DNA of 34,029 nt from Candidatus Kuenenia stuttgartensis (GCA_945861975.1 CAMAXD010000018.1:1-34029), one strand, 5' to 3'. Positions 1 to 6,645 are shown, counted from the stretch's first letter. Notes: generated by a model from the letters alone, not told the origin. Program-made: numbers and translations.

Positions 1-230
1 CCATCTGCGTCCTCGGCATGATCGTCGGACTGAGCGAACTGAGCTTCAACGTCAATCAGGAACTTGAAGACGTCGGGTCCGCCATCGGAAATATCAACCA
101 GACCTACTACTACACACTCGCCAGCGGCAAGAAGGGCGAAGTCGTCGGAGGCACAAACCTCGACTTCCAGGATGAGTGCGACAACAGCTGCGATATCAAC
201 TGCGACTCACCAGCTCAGGGTGAGAGGTAA
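1..230 (+). CDS. Pilin-like small surface protein, copy 1 (5' end missing)
   Basis: The reading frame is already open at the left edge (codons start at base 3) and ends at TAA 228-230, so the N-terminus lies outside the window. The visible part begins inside a hydrophobic segment (ICVLGMIVGL). It continues with a Tyr-rich stretch (QTYYYTLASGKK) and ends in an Asp/Cys cluster, C-x3-C-x3-C, then SPAQGER. It is a close paralogue of the next gene (342-671), and 56 consecutive bases are identical (93-148 and 507-562). By analogy with that complete copy it is probably an exported or membrane-inserted pilin-like subunit (Flp/TadE-like), but no machinery gene is in view, so the role is inferred. It lacks the poly-Ser tail of copy 2. 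Confidence 0.75.
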   Translation, partial: ICVLGMIVGLSELSFNVNQELEDVGSAIGNINQTYYYTLASGKKGEVVGGTNLDFQDECDNSCDINCDSPAQGER

Positions 231-328
231 GCAGCGATATGCTGGCGGCGAAAAGCTCGTCGCTGGAAAAATTTGATACTGAACACTGAACTGAAATCTC
301 AAATTACAAATAAGCAAATTAATAGCCT

Positions 329-332
329 GGAG
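329..332 (+). promoter_or_regulatory. Ribosome binding site fixing the GTG start of pilin-like copy 2
   Basis: GGAG lies 9 bases before a GTG codon at 342. An in-frame TAA at 333-335 excludes any earlier start, so GTG 342 is the first possible start and has a good Shine-Dalgarno site. Confidence 0.65.
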
Positions 333-341
333 TAATTTCTC

Positions 342-671
342 GTGAACTTAATCACCGCTCTGAAGAATGATGAAAACGGCTTCGTAGTTTCTGCTGAACT
401 GGTTCTCGTCGGCACCATCTGTGTGCTCGGCATGATCGTAGGCCTGACAGAACTGTCCTACGGCGTCAACGAAGAACTCGAAGACGTGGGCTCTGCCATC
501 GGCAGCATCAACCAGACCTACTACTACACACTCGCCAGCGGCAAGAAGGGCGAAGTCGTCGGCAGCACGAATCTTGACTTCCAGGATGAATGCGACAACA
601 GCTGCGACATTACCTGCGACAGTCCTGCTCAGGGTGAAAAAGGCAACTCCAGCTCAAGCAGCAGTTACTAA
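342..671 (+). CDS. Pilin-like small surface protein, copy 2 (Flp/TadE-like N-terminus)
   Basis: This 109-residue protein starts at GTG. A short polar N-terminus (about 1-13, ending NDENG) leads into a hydrophobic segment of about 25 residues (FVVSAELVLVGTICVLGMIVG). That layout recalls class III (Flp/TadE) prepilins: polar leader, Gly, then a hydrophobic helix with an early Glu. If cleavage follows the Gly, the Glu falls at +6 rather than the usual +5, so classical prepilin processing is not certain. The mature part is acidic, with a Tyr-rich patch, three Cys in C-x3-C-x3-C spacing among Asp residues, and a C-terminal GNSSSSSSY tail absent from copy 1. It is likely a structural subunit at the cell surface. 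The upstream paralogue suggests a tandem array that may extend beyond the left edge. A hairpin about 350 bases downstream (1027) may terminate it. Confidence 0.7.
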   Translation: MNLITALKNDENGFVVSAELVLVGTICVLGMIVGLTELSYGVNEELEDVGSAIGSINQTYYYTLASGKKGEVVGSTNLDFQDECDNSCDITCDSPAQGEKGNSSSSSSY

Positions 672-1100: not shown

Positions 1101-1451
1101 CTATCGCCGTTTCTTAGGGCGAACGATCCAGACCGCGATTCCGATCACCAGAAGAATCGGGAACAGAACCTTGATCCTGTTAACGAATACAGCCAGCAGC
1201 ACGAGCACCGCTAGTCGTCCGCGTCCAAGACCGTTCCAGACCGTTGGTCGACGACTGACCGGAAGGCACAGCCAGAGTGCTCCCAGTACAATCCCGATTC
1301 GAAGACAGGCGGCCGGCCAGGCAGAATCCTGATACCCGCCCCACAGGCCAAATATGGACGCAACTCCGCAGGCCAGCGCGATAGCGCCAACTCGGCGACG
1401 GCGGTCAACTAACGAAACAGTCGAAGGATTGTCGGAGGCCTTACCGGACAT
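1101..1451 (-). CDS. Small integral membrane protein, last gene of the ExbB-ExbD-toroid operon
   Basis: I choose the ATG at 1451, giving 116 residues (MSGKASDN...). It lies 5 bases after the stop of the toroid gene; longer starts would overlap that gene by up to 70 bases. After a basic cytoplasmic-looking N-terminus (VDRRRRVG) there are three or four hydrophobic segments: about residues 22-40 (IALACGVASIFGLWGG), 48-66 (ACLRIGIVLGALWLCLPV) and 78-109 (a long hydrophobic stretch interrupted by NRIK). The C-terminus is basic (VRPKKRR). I recognise no family. Position and spacing suggest co-transcription with the motor genes, perhaps as an assembly or membrane partner, but nothing in the sequence proves this. 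Confidence 0.7.
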   Translation of the reverse strand: MSGKASDNPSTVSLVDRRRRVGAIALACGVASIFGLWGGYQDSAWPAACLRIGIVLGALWLCLPVSRRPTVWNGLGRGRLAVLVLLAVFVNRIKVLFPILLVIGIAVWIVRPKKRR

Positions 1452-1456
1452 CGTGT

Positions 1457-4400
1457 TTACTTTTCGAGTTCCAGATAAAGCGGTAAATGCCGGTAGTAGA
1501 CTTCCAGCATCAACAGATTCAAGCATGTCAGATAATGACGACCACCGCCATTAGCCCATTTGTCAGGCGAAGGTCGAGAAGGATCCCAACTGCCGCTGAC
1601 CAATCCCTCTTTACTCTGAGTCGTAACGAGCAGATCACGTAAACTATTATTCCACTCGTTCCAGTGATCCCCCTGCATATGGAACATCACCTGCGTGGCA
1701 TAGTACCAATAGTAGGCGTCACGCTGGCCAAAATCGGGCAAACGTGTTCGCAGATAATTTGCACCGGCAATCAACTGAGCGTCATCACGTTTGGCCCCCA
1801 GGTATTGCCGCATCAGCAGCCCCTCCGCTGACATGGCTGGGCTGACGTCTTTCGTGGGATGATAGCTGAACTGTCCGGCAGCCGACTTGCTCTGCACAGA
1901 ATCAAGCCAATGACTCACTCCGGCGTAGGCGTCTTTAGGCACATTGAGTCCGGCCATTTCACCACTCTTCAGTGCCATCAATTGCCAACCGGAAACCGAC
2001 GTGTCCGATTCAAACTGCGGACGGTATCTCCATCCTCCGAACTCCTTATGTTGCGACTCGACAATAAAGTCCAAAGCCCTCTGGGCAGGGGCTCGCAGGG
2101 CAGGATCTTTCGTCAGCCCATACGCTTCACAAAGAGCGATGGACGCAATTCCGTGACTGTAAAACCATACGAATTCCGTCTCGTCGGCAAAGAGATCTCC
2201 ATCGGGCTTCTGATGTTCCAGCAGCCACTTCATTCCACGATCAACGACTTCCTGATGCTTTCCGGACTGATGAGTATATCCTGCTCCAAGGAACGCCAGC
2301 AGACTCAAGCCAGTGGCCGCACTATTGGAGACAAAGCTGCCCTCACCGAGCGACTCAGACGTCTCGCCGGGAAAATCATCAATGCTCCAATGTCCATCAG
2401 GATATTGATTGCGAGTAAGCCACTGCAGACCTCGTTCAACAGCCTCCTCTGAGTCCTCTGAACCTCCAAGTGTCTTTGCGGCTTCACGTCGCGCATCTGT
2501 TGTTCGCATCGAAAGACTCTCAGGGATCGAGGCCTCCGGAGAACTGCCACGTCCCTGAACCGACTTTTTTGCCAGTCCGGCAATCGCTTCCGCCGATGCC
2601 AACGACGGCCGATCAGCCCCAACACCCTTGCGCCCTGATGGAGTCGTAATTCGCGAAGTCAACGAAGGATCGCCAGCAATCCCAAAGCCGGAAGACGCCT
2701 GCGAAGGTCCACTTGCCCCCGGTAATCCGGCAGTTCGTCGAGGCAGCGCGCGGGTTCTGGGACCAGCGACAGCAGCAAGTCCCGCAGAAGCTGACTGCGG
2801 GCCAGCAAGCACCAGAGCACCCCCTTGTTCCGCCGCAACAGCTCCTTCGGTTAACCCCGGCAAAGCCCCCATGGATTTCGATCGTGCAAGCCCGGGACCA
2901 CTTCCGGCAGCAAAGCCGTCAGTGGCGGAAAGACGTGCGTTCGGTACTGTCCCACGTTCCCCATCGATGACTCCTGTTGCCACTTTCATTAGCCCGGATG
3001 CTGCAGTCGAAGAGGGGCCAACTCGATTTGATCCGGTTCGACTCTGGATCAATACCCCCGGCTCCCCGATTGCTTTCCCTGTCGGTAATCCGCTGCTCTG
3101 GCGTCCAGTCGAAGTTCGCGCCGGGCCGGCAATCATTCTCTCTGCAGATGGTTTGGTTCCAACTCCAATACCACTCACACCACTTTCACTCGCCGCCGTT
3201 CCAACAGCGTCAGCACCTGGCCCGGAACGTCTTGCAGGCGCAACCGACAAACCCGTATCAGAGCTTAATCCAGGCTTTGCCCCGCCAGCAGATTGTGATC
3301 TCGCAACCTTCACGCCCTGAAGCGAATTCACTGCGACACTAGTGCCCAGCGATCCATTCGATGACTCAATCTCACCCGCCGCCATGGTCCCGCCCGGTAC
3401 TTTTGCCGCGGTCGTCCTCTGTCCAGAGCGAGAGTTTGCAGATTCCGCAAGAGTTGGTCCGGAGGCCTCACTGGTCGCCGAAACTTCAACACTTTCAGCA
3501 GCACTACTTGACGCTGCCTGCGCGGCAGACACTTCCGAGCGTGCCATTAAGGCAACTCCACCATCTACCGGAGCACCTCCAGCTGCTTGCTCAGTTCGCG
3601 CGGACCGAGATGGGACCTTTGCTTTCACAGGCGGCTCTACAACCGGAGAAGGCACGTCGGCCCGCATGCTCGACTCTGCGGCGGATGCTGGATCCGCAGC
3701 CACCCGTCGAGGGACATCTGTATTGCGCTCTTTGAAAGTCGATTGAGTTGCTTCTTTTGAGGCAATCTGGATCTCTTCAGGCTTTGCCTCAACGGCATCG
3801 GCTTCGGCAACCTCTCGTTCGGAAGCAGCGGCATCCACCATCTCCGGAGTCACAGTGGCTTCACTGCGATTCGCGCGAATCTGAGCCGCCTCAATCTGCA
3901 TTTCCGGTGAGTCATTATCGTCTATTTGACGCTCAGCAACTGGAATCTCCGCTGCCGATTTGTTCTGCTGAACTTGATCCTCCAGCCTTGCCTCCTCCGC
4001 TGAAGCTGCTGCTGCGACATCCGGAACTGCGATGGCCTCCGGCTCTTCAATGTCACCCGCTGCCGCCTGACGTTGCATTTGCTCCGCAGAGTCAGCAGCA
4101 AACTCGACCTTCTCACGACGTTCCGGCGTCTCTGCTTGTTCTGCAACTTGAGGCACTTCAACCGCCTCTGACTCCGCCTTTTCAGCTTCGGCGATCATCA
4201 TTTCTGAACGCTCAGGCTCAAGCTCACGATCAGGTGTCTCAGTATCATTCTGCTGTAGCCAAGCTGCAGCAGGATCCGGCACATCACTGGTGGCATAGTC
4301 CGGCAATGTAAACTCTTCACGGGGAATGTGTGAGAGATCAGCAGCCTGAGCAGGTGTCGGTAACGGCCCGCGAAAATCTACGGTTGTCATCGACAGACAC

Positions 4401-4705
4401 AGGAGAAAATGAATCAGCAGGCTCAGAGCAATCGCCCACTGCAATCGGCGTTTGATCACTCCGCGAACCAGAAACGTGACCAGAAGTAACATCGCGATCA
4501 GCGCAAACGCCCACGCGATCTGACCTGAAAGGTGCTGCATACCGGGCAGCGGAACAACACTGGCATCGGTGAAAACAGCCGCCATGCCCTGCAGAGAAAC
4601 AATTCCACAGGCGACAGAGACACCAATGGCGACGAATATTCTCAGTCGCTGAGCAGTTGTCAGCTCGTTCAATTCTTCATTCGAAAGCTGAACAAGATCT
4701 CTCAC
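1457..4705 (-). CDS. Large membrane-anchored protein with long linker and C-terminal prenyltransferase/squalene-cyclase-like toroid
   Basis: This 1082-residue protein has a GTG start at 4705 that overlaps the exbD stop (GTGA), implying translational coupling. Three predicted membrane helices occur at about 21-44, 62-84 and 88-109. The basic loop KRR (85-87) and the basic N-terminus on the inside place everything after residue 110 outside the cytoplasm. Residues about 115-350 are Glu/Ala-rich and probably helical or extended; 350-740 are Ser/Ala/Gly-rich, repetitive and likely disordered. Residues about 753-1082 form an alpha/alpha-toroid of the terpene cyclase/prenyltransferase type, with repeats such as GLQWLTRNQYPDGHW and GMKWLLEHQKPDG. 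The cyclase DxDD acid is not seen; the matching place reads ESDTSVSGW (899-907), so cyclase activity is unlikely. Context with ExbB/ExbD suggests an energised envelope function. Composition explains the many long antisense reading frames over it. Confidence 0.85.
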   Translation of the reverse strand: MRDLVQLSNEELNELTTAQRLRIFVAIGVSVACGIVSLQGMAAVFTDASVVPLPGMQHLSGQIAWAFALIAMLLLVTFLVRGVIKRRLQWAIALSLLIHFLLCLSMTTVDFRGPLPTPAQAADLSHIPREEFTLPDYATSDVPDPAAAWLQQNDTETPDRELEPERSEMMIAEAEKAESEAVEVPQVAEQAETPERREKVEFAADSAEQMQRQAAAGDIEEPEAIAVPDVAAAASAEEARLEDQVQQNKSAAEIPVAERQIDDNDSPEMQIEAAQIRANRSEATVTPEMVDAAASEREVAEADAVEAKPEEIQIASKEATQSTFKERNTDVPRRVAADPASAAESSMRADVPSPVVEPPVKAKVPSRSARTEQAAGGAPVDGGVALMARSEVSAAQAASSSAAESVEVSATSEASGPTLAESANSRSGQRTTAAKVPGGTMAAGEIESSNGSLGTSVAVNSLQGVKVARSQSAGGAKPGLSSDTGLSVAPARRSGPGADAVGTAASESGVSGIGVGTKPSAERMIAGPARTSTGRQSSGLPTGKAIGEPGVLIQSRTGSNRVGPSSTAASGLMKVATGVIDGERGTVPNARLSATDGFAAGSGPGLARSKSMGALPGLTEGAVAAEQGGALVLAGPQSASAGLAAVAGPRTRALPRRTAGLPGASGPSQASSGFGIAGDPSLTSRITTPSGRKGVGADRPSLASAEAIAGLAKKSVQGRGSSPEASIPESLSMRTTDARREAAKTLGGSEDSEEAVERGLQWLTRNQYPDGHWSIDDFPGETSESLGEGSFVSNSAATGLSLLAFLGAGYTHQSGKHQEVVDRGMKWLLEHQKPDGDLFADETEFVWFYSHGIASIALCEAYGLTKDPALRAPAQRALDFIVESQHKEFGGWRYRPQFESDTSVSGWQLMALKSGEMAGLNVPKDAYAGVSHWLDSVQSKSAAGQFSYHPTKDVSPAMSAEGLLMRQYLGAKRDDAQLIAGANYLRTRLPDFGQRDAYYWYYATQVMFHMQGDHWNEWNNSLRDLLVTTQSKEGLVSGSWDPSRPSPDKWANGGGRHYLTCLNLLMLEVYYRHLPLYLELEK

Positions 4706-5163
4706 AGCTCGGGCCCCTCCTTGGCGACCTCCGGCGGAATCACCGCCACTCGATAGTCGCGAATTCCGGCCTTGTTACAAAGACTCATAACCCGTGCGAT
4801 GTACTTCCAGTCGGATCGTTCGTCCCCCCGAATCACGACCGGCTGGTTTCCAGGATTATTCGTTCCTGCCCGCTGCAGCCGTTCCTCTAATTGTGCCTCA
4901 CTGTGCAATTCACCAGCCACGTAGTATTGACCATCAACGTTAATATTGACGACCATCTCACGCGGTCGCATCACCATCGGCATGGCGGCCACTGCATCCG
5001 GCAAAGTTGCATCGAGCGATCCTTCGCCGGAAGCTTTGGACTCTTCTTCAAATCGACTGGCCACCATAAAGAACAGCAGCAACTGAAAGACGCAGTCGAT
5101 CATCGGCGTCATGTCAATGAGACGCTTGCTGGTTCCCTGTCGATTCTTGTAGCGAAACCGCAT
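4702..5163 (-). CDS. ExbD/TolR family proton-channel subunit
   Basis: The protein has 153 residues. A short basic cytoplasmic N-terminus (MRFRYKNRQGTSKR) is followed by the family signature IDMTPMIDCVFQLLLFFMVAS at about 16-36. That stretch includes the conserved membrane Asp (D23), which in ExbD/TolR carries protons. The rest is an extracytoplasmic domain ending near PEVAKEGPEL, as in the family. It starts 2 bases after the ExbB-like gene's stop and its own stop overlaps the GTG of the toroid gene, so the three form one operon. In known systems ExbD/TolR pairs with ExbB/TolQ and energises TonB or TolA; neither is present here. I give no symbol because ExbD, TolR and other subfamilies cannot be separated by eye. 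Confidence 0.93.
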   Translation of the reverse strand: MRFRYKNRQGTSKRLIDMTPMIDCVFQLLLFFMVASRFEEESKASGEGSLDATLPDAVAAMPMVMRPREMVVNINVDGQYYVAGELHSEAQLEERLQRAGTNNPGNQPVVIRGDERSDWKYIARVMSLCNKAGIRDYRVAVIPPEVAKEGPEL

Positions 5164-5165
5164 TG

Positions 5166-6209
5166 CTACGACTTCTCCCTGACACTTGGCGCCGAGGGGG
5201 CCGTCACTGTACGAAGGGCACTACGATCATCGATTGTCGTATTCATTTCCCCACTGCCACTTTTTGAGGACGATGTCGATTCCGGGCGAGGTCCGGTTCC
5301 CTTCAACAGGACTCCCGACGCATCACTCTTCCGGGTCACTCGCCATTTGCCTTCAAACCGTTCAAACAACGGCACGATCTCATTGAAAACATCTTCCATG
5401 CCCCGCAACAGGCGTTCAATTCGCCCCTCAAGCATATTGGCAATCACAATCGCCGGAATTGCGACACTGAGTCCGGCAAACGTCGTAATCAATGCCGTGT
5501 AGATCCCCTGTGCAAGTTCCTGCCCCTTGGCTGTTCCTGTGGAAGTCGAAGTACTGATGACCATAAAGGCCATAATCATTCCCTGCACGGTTCCCAGAAG
5601 TCCCAGCATCGGCGAAATGCTGACCACCACATTGATTGGGCGAATGTTCTGAGCCATTTGGTCAGCTTCTCGACTGACCGCATCTTCGACGGCTTTCTCC
5701 AACTCTGCCTGCGGTCTCCCGACTTTCAGGATCGCCGCCTGCAGAACCCGAGTTAACGGGGAGCGATACTTCAGGCAAACATCGTAAGCCAGTCGCGGAT
5801 CGATACCGCTGCTCTGCTGATTTAACTTCTGCAATCCGACCAGGAGCCCGGGAGGGATGATCCGATTTCTTCGCAGCCCAATTCTTCGCTCAATGGCATA
5901 CGCCATGACAACGATTGAGCACAACGCAATCGGGATCATAAACAGGCCACCCTGAACGGCCAGATCCCATAAAAATGGCAATGGCTGAGGTATCCCCAGC
6001 CGCACAAGTTCATCAGATACGTTTCTGGTAAAAGATTTGGCTTCCGCCATCGTTTCCGAAGAAGAATCTTCGGCTGCAACATTACCCTGAGGTCCATCTG
6101 AGATTTGACCAGATTGATCAACAGGAGCGGACGACTCCTGTGCCAAAGCCGGTGGCAGAGTGAGGCACAGAAAAACCACAGAACCAAAAACAATCAGCGA
6201 AGTTCGCAT
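5166..6209 (-). CDS. MotA/TolQ/ExbB family proton channel with signal peptide
   Basis: I place the start at ATG 6209 (347 residues) because it begins a clear signal peptide (MRTSLIVFGSVVFLCLTLPP, cleavage near ALA-QE at 23/24). An ATG 36 bases upstream would put a polar stretch before it. A short periplasmic region follows, then a first membrane helix at about 85-107 (LFMIPIALCSIVVMAYAIERR). A long cytoplasmic loop leads to two further helices containing ISPMLGLLGTVQGMI and LITTFAGLSVAIPAIVIAN, the classical ExbB/TolQ pore segments. The C-terminus is Ser/Thr-rich. It is the first gene of the ExbB-ExbD-toroid operon. An N-terminal signal peptide on an ExbB homologue is common among homologues outside the E. 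coli type. Confidence 0.92.
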   Translation of the reverse strand: MRTSLIVFGSVVFLCLTLPPALAQESSAPVDQSGQISDGPQGNVAAEDSSSETMAEAKSFTRNVSDELVRLGIPQPLPFLWDLAVQGGLFMIPIALCSIVVMAYAIERRIGLRRNRIIPPGLLVGLQKLNQQSSGIDPRLAYDVCLKYRSPLTRVLQAAILKVGRPQAELEKAVEDAVSREADQMAQNIRPINVVVSISPMLGLLGTVQGMIMAFMVISTSTSTGTAKGQELAQGIYTALITTFAGLSVAIPAIVIANMLEGRIERLLRGMEDVFNEIVPLFERFEGKWRVTRKSDASGVLLKGTGPRPESTSSSKSGSGEMNTTIDDRSALRTVTAPSAPSVREKS

Positions 6210-6645
6210 GGAACATCCTGAGAGGCCATTAATGAGGTACTTCATGGTTCAGTTTCGCCTGAAACAAATTGCAATTCATTTCCTGTGCTGACCCGCAGGT
6301 TACAAAACTCTATGCAGCCGGACATGTCGCTCGCCACTAACTTGACTGCCATCTTCGGGACATTTCAGGATGTCGGCGATTTTCTCCGAATTCTCTCCGG
6401 CTGTTTTCTGTGTTCCAGCATCGAAACAACAAACTCTGTCTCTTTAGAGAACGTGTTCTTCCGGAGCGGAACGGAAACCCCGTGCATCGTTTATCGCCGA
6501 CAATGTGATCCCGCCGACGACGAAGCCCCACTACGCGACAACCTGAACTGTTCGTGCTATTCGGATGTTTTTTCGAGTTTCCCGGGACTTCTGTGCTGCT
6601 TTGCACCAGAGCCGACCGAAAACGCCGCATCTTCGGAAAGCCAAC
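6210..6645. other. Intergenic region upstream of the ExbB operon
   Basis: These 436 bases lie between the unknown gene ending at 6646 and the ExbB-like start, both on the minus strand. Open frames here are short, rich in Cys, Arg and Ser, and lack recognisable domains or ribosome sites, so I call no gene. It presumably holds the promoter of the operon (minus strand, towards 6210) and the 3' end of the upstream unit. I see no clear hairpin terminator. Confidence 0.4.

Follow-up and report, generated by a model that had tools for sequence, protein, structure and literature searches.

We identified in Candidatus Kuenenia stuttgartensis a minus-strand cluster encoding an ExbB/ExbD motor followed by a membrane-anchored protein that ends in an (alpha/alpha)6 toroid, and this toroid system probably acts as a periplasmic force transducer that is driven by protons, as TonB and TolA are. 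Ton and Tol are the textbook systems by which energy of the inner membrane is put to use at the outer one. If this assignment is right, Planctomycetota run parallel Ton/Tol-like machines that differ in their working head, frequently more than one to a genome and in TonB-less lineages, which opens a way to study how the planctomycete outer membrane is energised and how unusual uptake works. With Ser95, His99, Pro135 and Tyr137 of the toroid protein named, the idea is testable at once. The new element is the toroid head; SHLS-anchored transducers with a non-TonB head and a TPR neighbour have already been described (PMC12204202). A literature search, with most subscription papers and preprints outside its scope, found nothing relevant joining ExbB/ExbD with squalene, prenyltransferase or toroid.

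Gene layout and the ExbB/ExbD motor

The window, the whole stretch of 34,029 nucleotides analysed, is contig C18 of a 6.26 Mb genome (G000) that is 94 % complete. ORF calls placed exbB, exbD, the toroid gene and a fourth gene in succession on the minus strand, separated by 2, -4 and 5 bases, the layout already proposed in the sequence-only reading of this DNA. That reading had the gene set right, but the end it gave to the cluster, 6209, is a downstream ATG inside the exbB ORF, whose start is at 6245. exbB (5166..6245, minus strand) encodes the proton-channel subunit, matches PF01618 (MotA_ExbB) at 100 bits and has a signal-peptide-like N-terminus. exbD (4702..5163, minus strand; PF02472, 81 bits) encodes the single-TM subunit and carries the pore Asp23 within the sequence DMTPMIDCVF. 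The toroid transducer gene (1457..4705, minus strand) has a GTG start, overlaps exbD by 4 bases and encodes 1082 amino acids, and gene 4 (1101..1451, minus strand), starting 5 bases past the toroid stop, encodes a small membrane protein of 116 amino acids. At the contig end (window 1-671) a short ORF (MNLITALKNDENGFVVSAELVLVGTICVLG...) is present in two near-identical tandem copies, each with one hydrophobic N-terminal stretch.

The pore motifs, Asp23 of ExbD and the two pore threonines of ExbB, are present; in an alignment with E. coli ExbB the equivalents of T148 and T181 (the pore Thr residues), S34 and P190 are all conserved. The position of E. coli ExbB Trp38, a contact of the TonB His, is Met here and Val, Leu or Met across the toroid-linked ExbB family, and co-conservation of the anchor His with this Trp was ruled out because the Trp is absent from the family. 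ExbB and ExbD of E. coli assemble in a 5:2 stoichiometry. The Kuenenia genome contains ten MotA/ExbB-family genes. In a quick tree, with long-branch warnings elsewhere in it, the toroid-linked ExbBs, the window exbB among them, form very nearly one clade of 60 rows (SH-aLRT 96). Two rows within it are labelled otherwise: L087, in which a toroid is near but at a greater distance, and L027, from a genome (G028) in which TPR-exbB and exbD-toroid are separated by 0.78 Mb.

The TonB-like anchor and the D-box-like segment

The N-terminus of the toroid protein contains three hydrophobic helices, in agreement with the three membrane helices first read from the sequence. Helix 3 (residues 86-108; 4382..4450, minus strand), RRLQWAIALSLLIHFLLCLSM, carries a TonB/TolA-type Ser95-x3-His99 (codons 4409-4423) and is flanked on its cytoplasmic side by positive charges (VRGVIKRR), and by the positive-inside rule the long low-complexity linker read in the translation (residues 138-735; 2501..4294, minus strand) would therefore lie in the periplasm. 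Ser-x3-His is the best-conserved part of the SHLS of TonB and TolA and contacts ExbB or TolQ in cryo-EM structures, the Leu and second Ser being less conserved in TonB (PMC12215075). These last two residues are absent from the toroid protein, which by register has Met106 and Asp110 in their place.

Aligning the N-terminal 170 residues across 21 relatives, with identity down to 20 %, showed only Q89, S95, L96, H99, P135 and Y137 to be invariant. Of 117 distinct toroid proteins in which a last TM helix could be detected, 83 have S...H in it, against 12 of 787 background TM helices from neighbouring genes (odds ratio ~158, Fisher p ~1e-75, uncorrected for relatedness). His occupies the second motif position in 107 and Asn in eight of 115 toroid proteins with a recognised motif, a ratio that is no free survey as the motif finder took only these two residues. 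The Asn-bearing proteins are scattered over several separate places in the toroid tree. Judging from its title, Swayne and Postle 2011 (a reference in PMC8928145) reports that Asn fully substitutes for TonB His20. Among the proteins that do not match the motif, L155 has Tyr, the pair L131/L134 has Thr, and one clade lacks the His. TonB and TolA use Ser-x3-His to dock on ExbB and TolQ, and its presence in helix 3 supports the toroid protein as the partner of the motor.

In TonB a beta-strand directly after the TM helix is bound by ExbD, and the E. coli D-box peptide is QPISVTMVTPAD; the TonB D-box has a reported Kd of about 19 uM (PMC10907165). The toroid proteins share a conserved segment of the form hydrophobic-T-hydrophobic-P-[DE]-Y about 33-36 residues past the anchor His. 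Its representative in the window is EEFTLPDY (residues 130-137; 4295..4318, minus strand), whose P135 and Y137 are invariant in the 21 relatives and which fits the seven-residue D-box pattern in part. In 45 of the 80 linked proteins P[DE][YHF] follows the His at a distance of 33-49 residues, compared with 3.9 after shuffling and 0 in a control linker stretch. The expectation that this segment would be predicted as a strand was not borne out by a model of the isolated N-terminus, which is of low confidence (pLDDT 58.8) and has no strand at LPDY. One protein (L196:1207-5328) reads EITVSMVAPDAL after its Ser-x3-His helix, close to the E. coli peptide.

In the mechanism we propose, ExbB and ExbD would, by homology, form a proton-driven motor on which the toroid protein docks through helix 3, its Ser95-x3-His99 meeting ExbB, and ExbD may grip it through EEFTLPDY. 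The linker of ~600 residues would span the periplasm, and the squalene-cyclase-fold toroid would take the place of the TonB C-terminal domain, binding its ligand or partner at a distance from the inner membrane. Proton flow, acting through helix 3 and the D-box-like segment, would then cause the long arm to pull or move the toroid head against its target. A TPR protein of ~1100 residues, periplasmic in this scheme and encoded at another place in the genome, would probably serve as scaffold or target.

The C-terminal toroid domain

Pfam gives the toroid protein a weak match to SQHop_cyclase_C (32 bits). For the C-terminal 375 residues, AlphaFold with 58 homologues gave a confident model (mean pLDDT 90.4, pTM 0.90) that folds into helix pairs arranged as a 12-helix ring (domain residues 736-1079; 1469..2500, minus strand). 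Its best structural neighbour is squalene-hopene cyclase (2sqc; Z 26.5, rmsd 3.4, 295 residues), followed by terpene cyclases, AprG, 2-epimerases and GH76 enzymes, and on account of these neighbours we assign the domain as an (alpha/alpha)6 ring; a profile search agrees (2sqc, E 1.1e-20). D-x-D-D is absent both from residues 708-1082 as read in the sequence and from the 58-sequence consensus, bearing out the original description of a toroid lacking the cyclase acid, and with the motif missing, terpene cyclase activity was discarded. At the position where TonB or TolA carries its C-terminal domain, we found no Pfam TonB match and no TolA-III domain, and a vWA domain is likewise absent by both Pfam and the model; the toroid stands there instead. 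Over this domain, orthologues of the toroid gene share 95-96 % (G015, G004), 77 % (G001, G011), 66 % (G023) and 61 % (G022) identity.

A somewhat unlikely alternative is that the toroid is an enzyme with a working active site for a glycan, peptidoglycan or lipid, the motor positioning it or feeding it substrate, rather than a head that binds passively. Across the 58 toroid sequences, which are about 40 % identical to that of the window, 14 columns are invariant and 31 nearly so, suggesting a conserved site, and the strongly conserved polar and aromatic residues (Y142, E153, W185, R186, Y187, D194, S196, Y241, Y291, Y294, W308, W333, R349 and E361) would suit catalysis, as would the sugar-acting fold neighbours AprG, the 2-epimerases and GH76. 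A shared fold however shows no function; the toroid contains no known catalytic signature, DxDD included, and the clustering of conserved residues at the cavity or ligand end of the ring is not significant (25/44 vs 155/328, p = 0.11). An extension of this alternative, in which phylum-wide machines move a squalene-cyclase-fold enzyme as their head, with several copies per genome sharing motors, is improbable. Were the head an enzyme, membrane energy would be spent on catalysis or substrate pulling in the periplasm or at the outer membrane.

Distribution, the TPR gene and related transducers

We used the toroid to scan 84,980 species genomes, and the best 80 loci returned are all from Planctomycetota, including Rhodopirellula baltica, Blastopirellula marina, Stieleria, Rubripirellula and Roseimaritima. 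Among the 58 named loci testable for upstream genes (≥ 1.5 kb upstream), 51 have exbB and/or exbD directly upstream of the toroid: 44 have both, two have exbD only and five exbB only, the last being an effect of the distance rule as their exbD ORF overlaps the toroid ORF. Since the same order recurs in dozens of Planctomycetota genomes, the association is more than chance. A toroid relative is present in 133 of 149 genomes sampled across the phylum, and two genomes from other classes (L263, L266) likewise show the exbB-exbD-toroid linkage. Matches in the phylum sample reach 14 in one genome (G148), and there are none in a few families (f48, f49). The large toroid system (an exbD-linked toroid of 1000 residues or more) is patchy within the genus, occurring in 5 of 18 genomes, and its role may accordingly be accessory, for example in taking up certain substrates, and not one of housekeeping.

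The four-gene linkage first proposed stands for exbB, exbD and the toroid; it does not extend to gene 4, which has no Pfam match and no identifiable family, is kept only in the two closest, 95 %-identical relatives, and was rejected as a core part, so that it probably lies outside the core set. The conserved fourth part of the system is a large TPR gene (~1090 residues); 57 of the 89 linked loci have it ahead of exbB in the same orientation. In the Kuenenia genome it is outside the window, on contig C201, and is 63 % identical to the copy in G001. Among 40 relatives it is present in exactly the ten with a large toroid (G000, G001, G004, G011, G015, G022, G023, G028, G033 and G037) and is missing from the remaining 30; the chance of such a match is ~1.2e-9 (one over 40 choose 10, ignoring relatedness). 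Synteny of the TPR gene with the operon is broken in G000, G004, G015 and G028, and as the gene lies away from the operon in the first three of these, its co-inheritance is not a matter of synteny only. The Vibrio TonB2 system with TtpC, TtpB and TtpD also has an obligatory TPR partner, TtpD2; unlike the toroid system it contains a true TonB, and TtpD2 is 425 amino acids and encoded downstream of tonB2 (PMC6957404).

None of the 18 genomes in the genus has TonB_C, 35 of the 40 relatives lack it, and neither TonB_2 nor the plug domain of TonB-dependent receptors was found in the Kuenenia genome. A separate TonB serving this ExbB/ExbD pair, which the sequence-only reading had set against its own proposal, is thus missing from the whole genus as far as TonB_C is concerned. 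Three of the ten large-toroid genomes (G023, G028 and G037) encode a TonB_C protein elsewhere, and therefore both systems can coexist. Relative to TonB-ExbB-ExbD of E. coli, the toroid system shares the motor pore Thr and Asp, the Ser-x3-His of the transducer TM helix and a long linker, and has after the helix a segment that resembles the D-box in part; it differs in its toroid in place of TonB_C, in two additional TM helices and a linker of ~600 residues, and in the lack of TonB_C in the genus and of a plug domain in the Kuenenia genome.

At least seven further toroid genes are present in the Kuenenia genome. Unlinked toroid genes, which the sequence-only reading had named as a possible refutation, do exist, but most keep the anchor. 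Ser-x3-His is retained by 30 of 39 unlinked single-TM toroid paralogues, which is consistent with shared motors. The E. coli TonB gene is likewise unlinked to exbB/exbD. Toroid proteins without the motif include a 543-residue group and secreted proteins of 353 residues. His is lost from the TM helix in a group of 520-550 amino acids (L095, L100, L101; L093, L098, L102), some of which lie near a divergent exbB, and the nearest paralogue in the same genome (G000:C111, 543 aa) belongs to this group.

The common occurrence of toroid paralogues away from exbBD, together with the TonB_C proteins of the three genomes above, would fit a toroid protein that is simply operon-linked, its Ser-x3-His inherited and ExbBD driving another transducer. 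This is very improbable given that TonB_C is missing throughout the genus, that the Ser-x3-His and D-box-like segment are selectively conserved and that linkage and co-inheritance are kept across families. A membrane-bound squalene or hopanoid cyclase lying beside transport genes by happenstance is scarcely credible, for the toroid protein shares with class II terpene cyclases the fold and the high structural and profile scores given above but has one of a cyclase's two barrels, lacks D-x-D-D and carries a long hydrophilic linker and a TonB-type inner-membrane anchor. The anchor, the D-box-like segment, the gene order, the ExbB clade and the absence of TonB_C from the genus all favour the toroid protein as the moved partner of ExbB/ExbD, as was initially proposed. 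Against it count the missing Leu and second Ser of SHLS, the absence of Trp38 from the ExbB family, the partial D-box match with no strand in the N-terminal model, and the many paralogues that lie away from exbBD, some of them without the His.

A number of related arrangements were observed. A second toroid system in the Kuenenia genome is apparently split between two contigs, with exbD and an 813-aa toroid protein bearing Ser-x3-His on G000:C33 (L138:8466-11455), and TPR and an exbB cut by the contig end on G000:C40 (L227:6462-10407); the C40 ExbB groups near other toroid-linked ExbBs (support 80). Transducers ending in vWA, with SHLS and located beside TPR-tolQ-tolR genes, have been proposed in PVC and other bacteria (Williams-Jones et al. 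2025, PMC12204202). They resemble the toroid system in their SHLS-type anchor, motor genes, TPR gene and non-TonB end domain, and differ from it in that the latter ends in a toroid and usually has one exbD, not a tolR-like pair; the main text of that paper has no mention of toroid, squalene or prenyl. A TPR-exbB-exbD-exbD cluster, the arrangement reported for vWA transducers, lies close to a contig end in the Kuenenia genome (L226:703-3952, G000:C592). L117:14859-16835 encodes a vWA protein of 658 residues whose TM anchor is of the Ser-x3-His type (SLIAH), in the same region as an exbD-toroid pair, and resembles the vWA force transducers described in 2025. In some linked toroid proteins (L087:9448-13053 and L088:5254-9393) a PD40 (TolB-like) beta-propeller lies between TM helices 1 and 2, and is followed by a Ser-x3-His/Asn helix, a linker and then the toroid.
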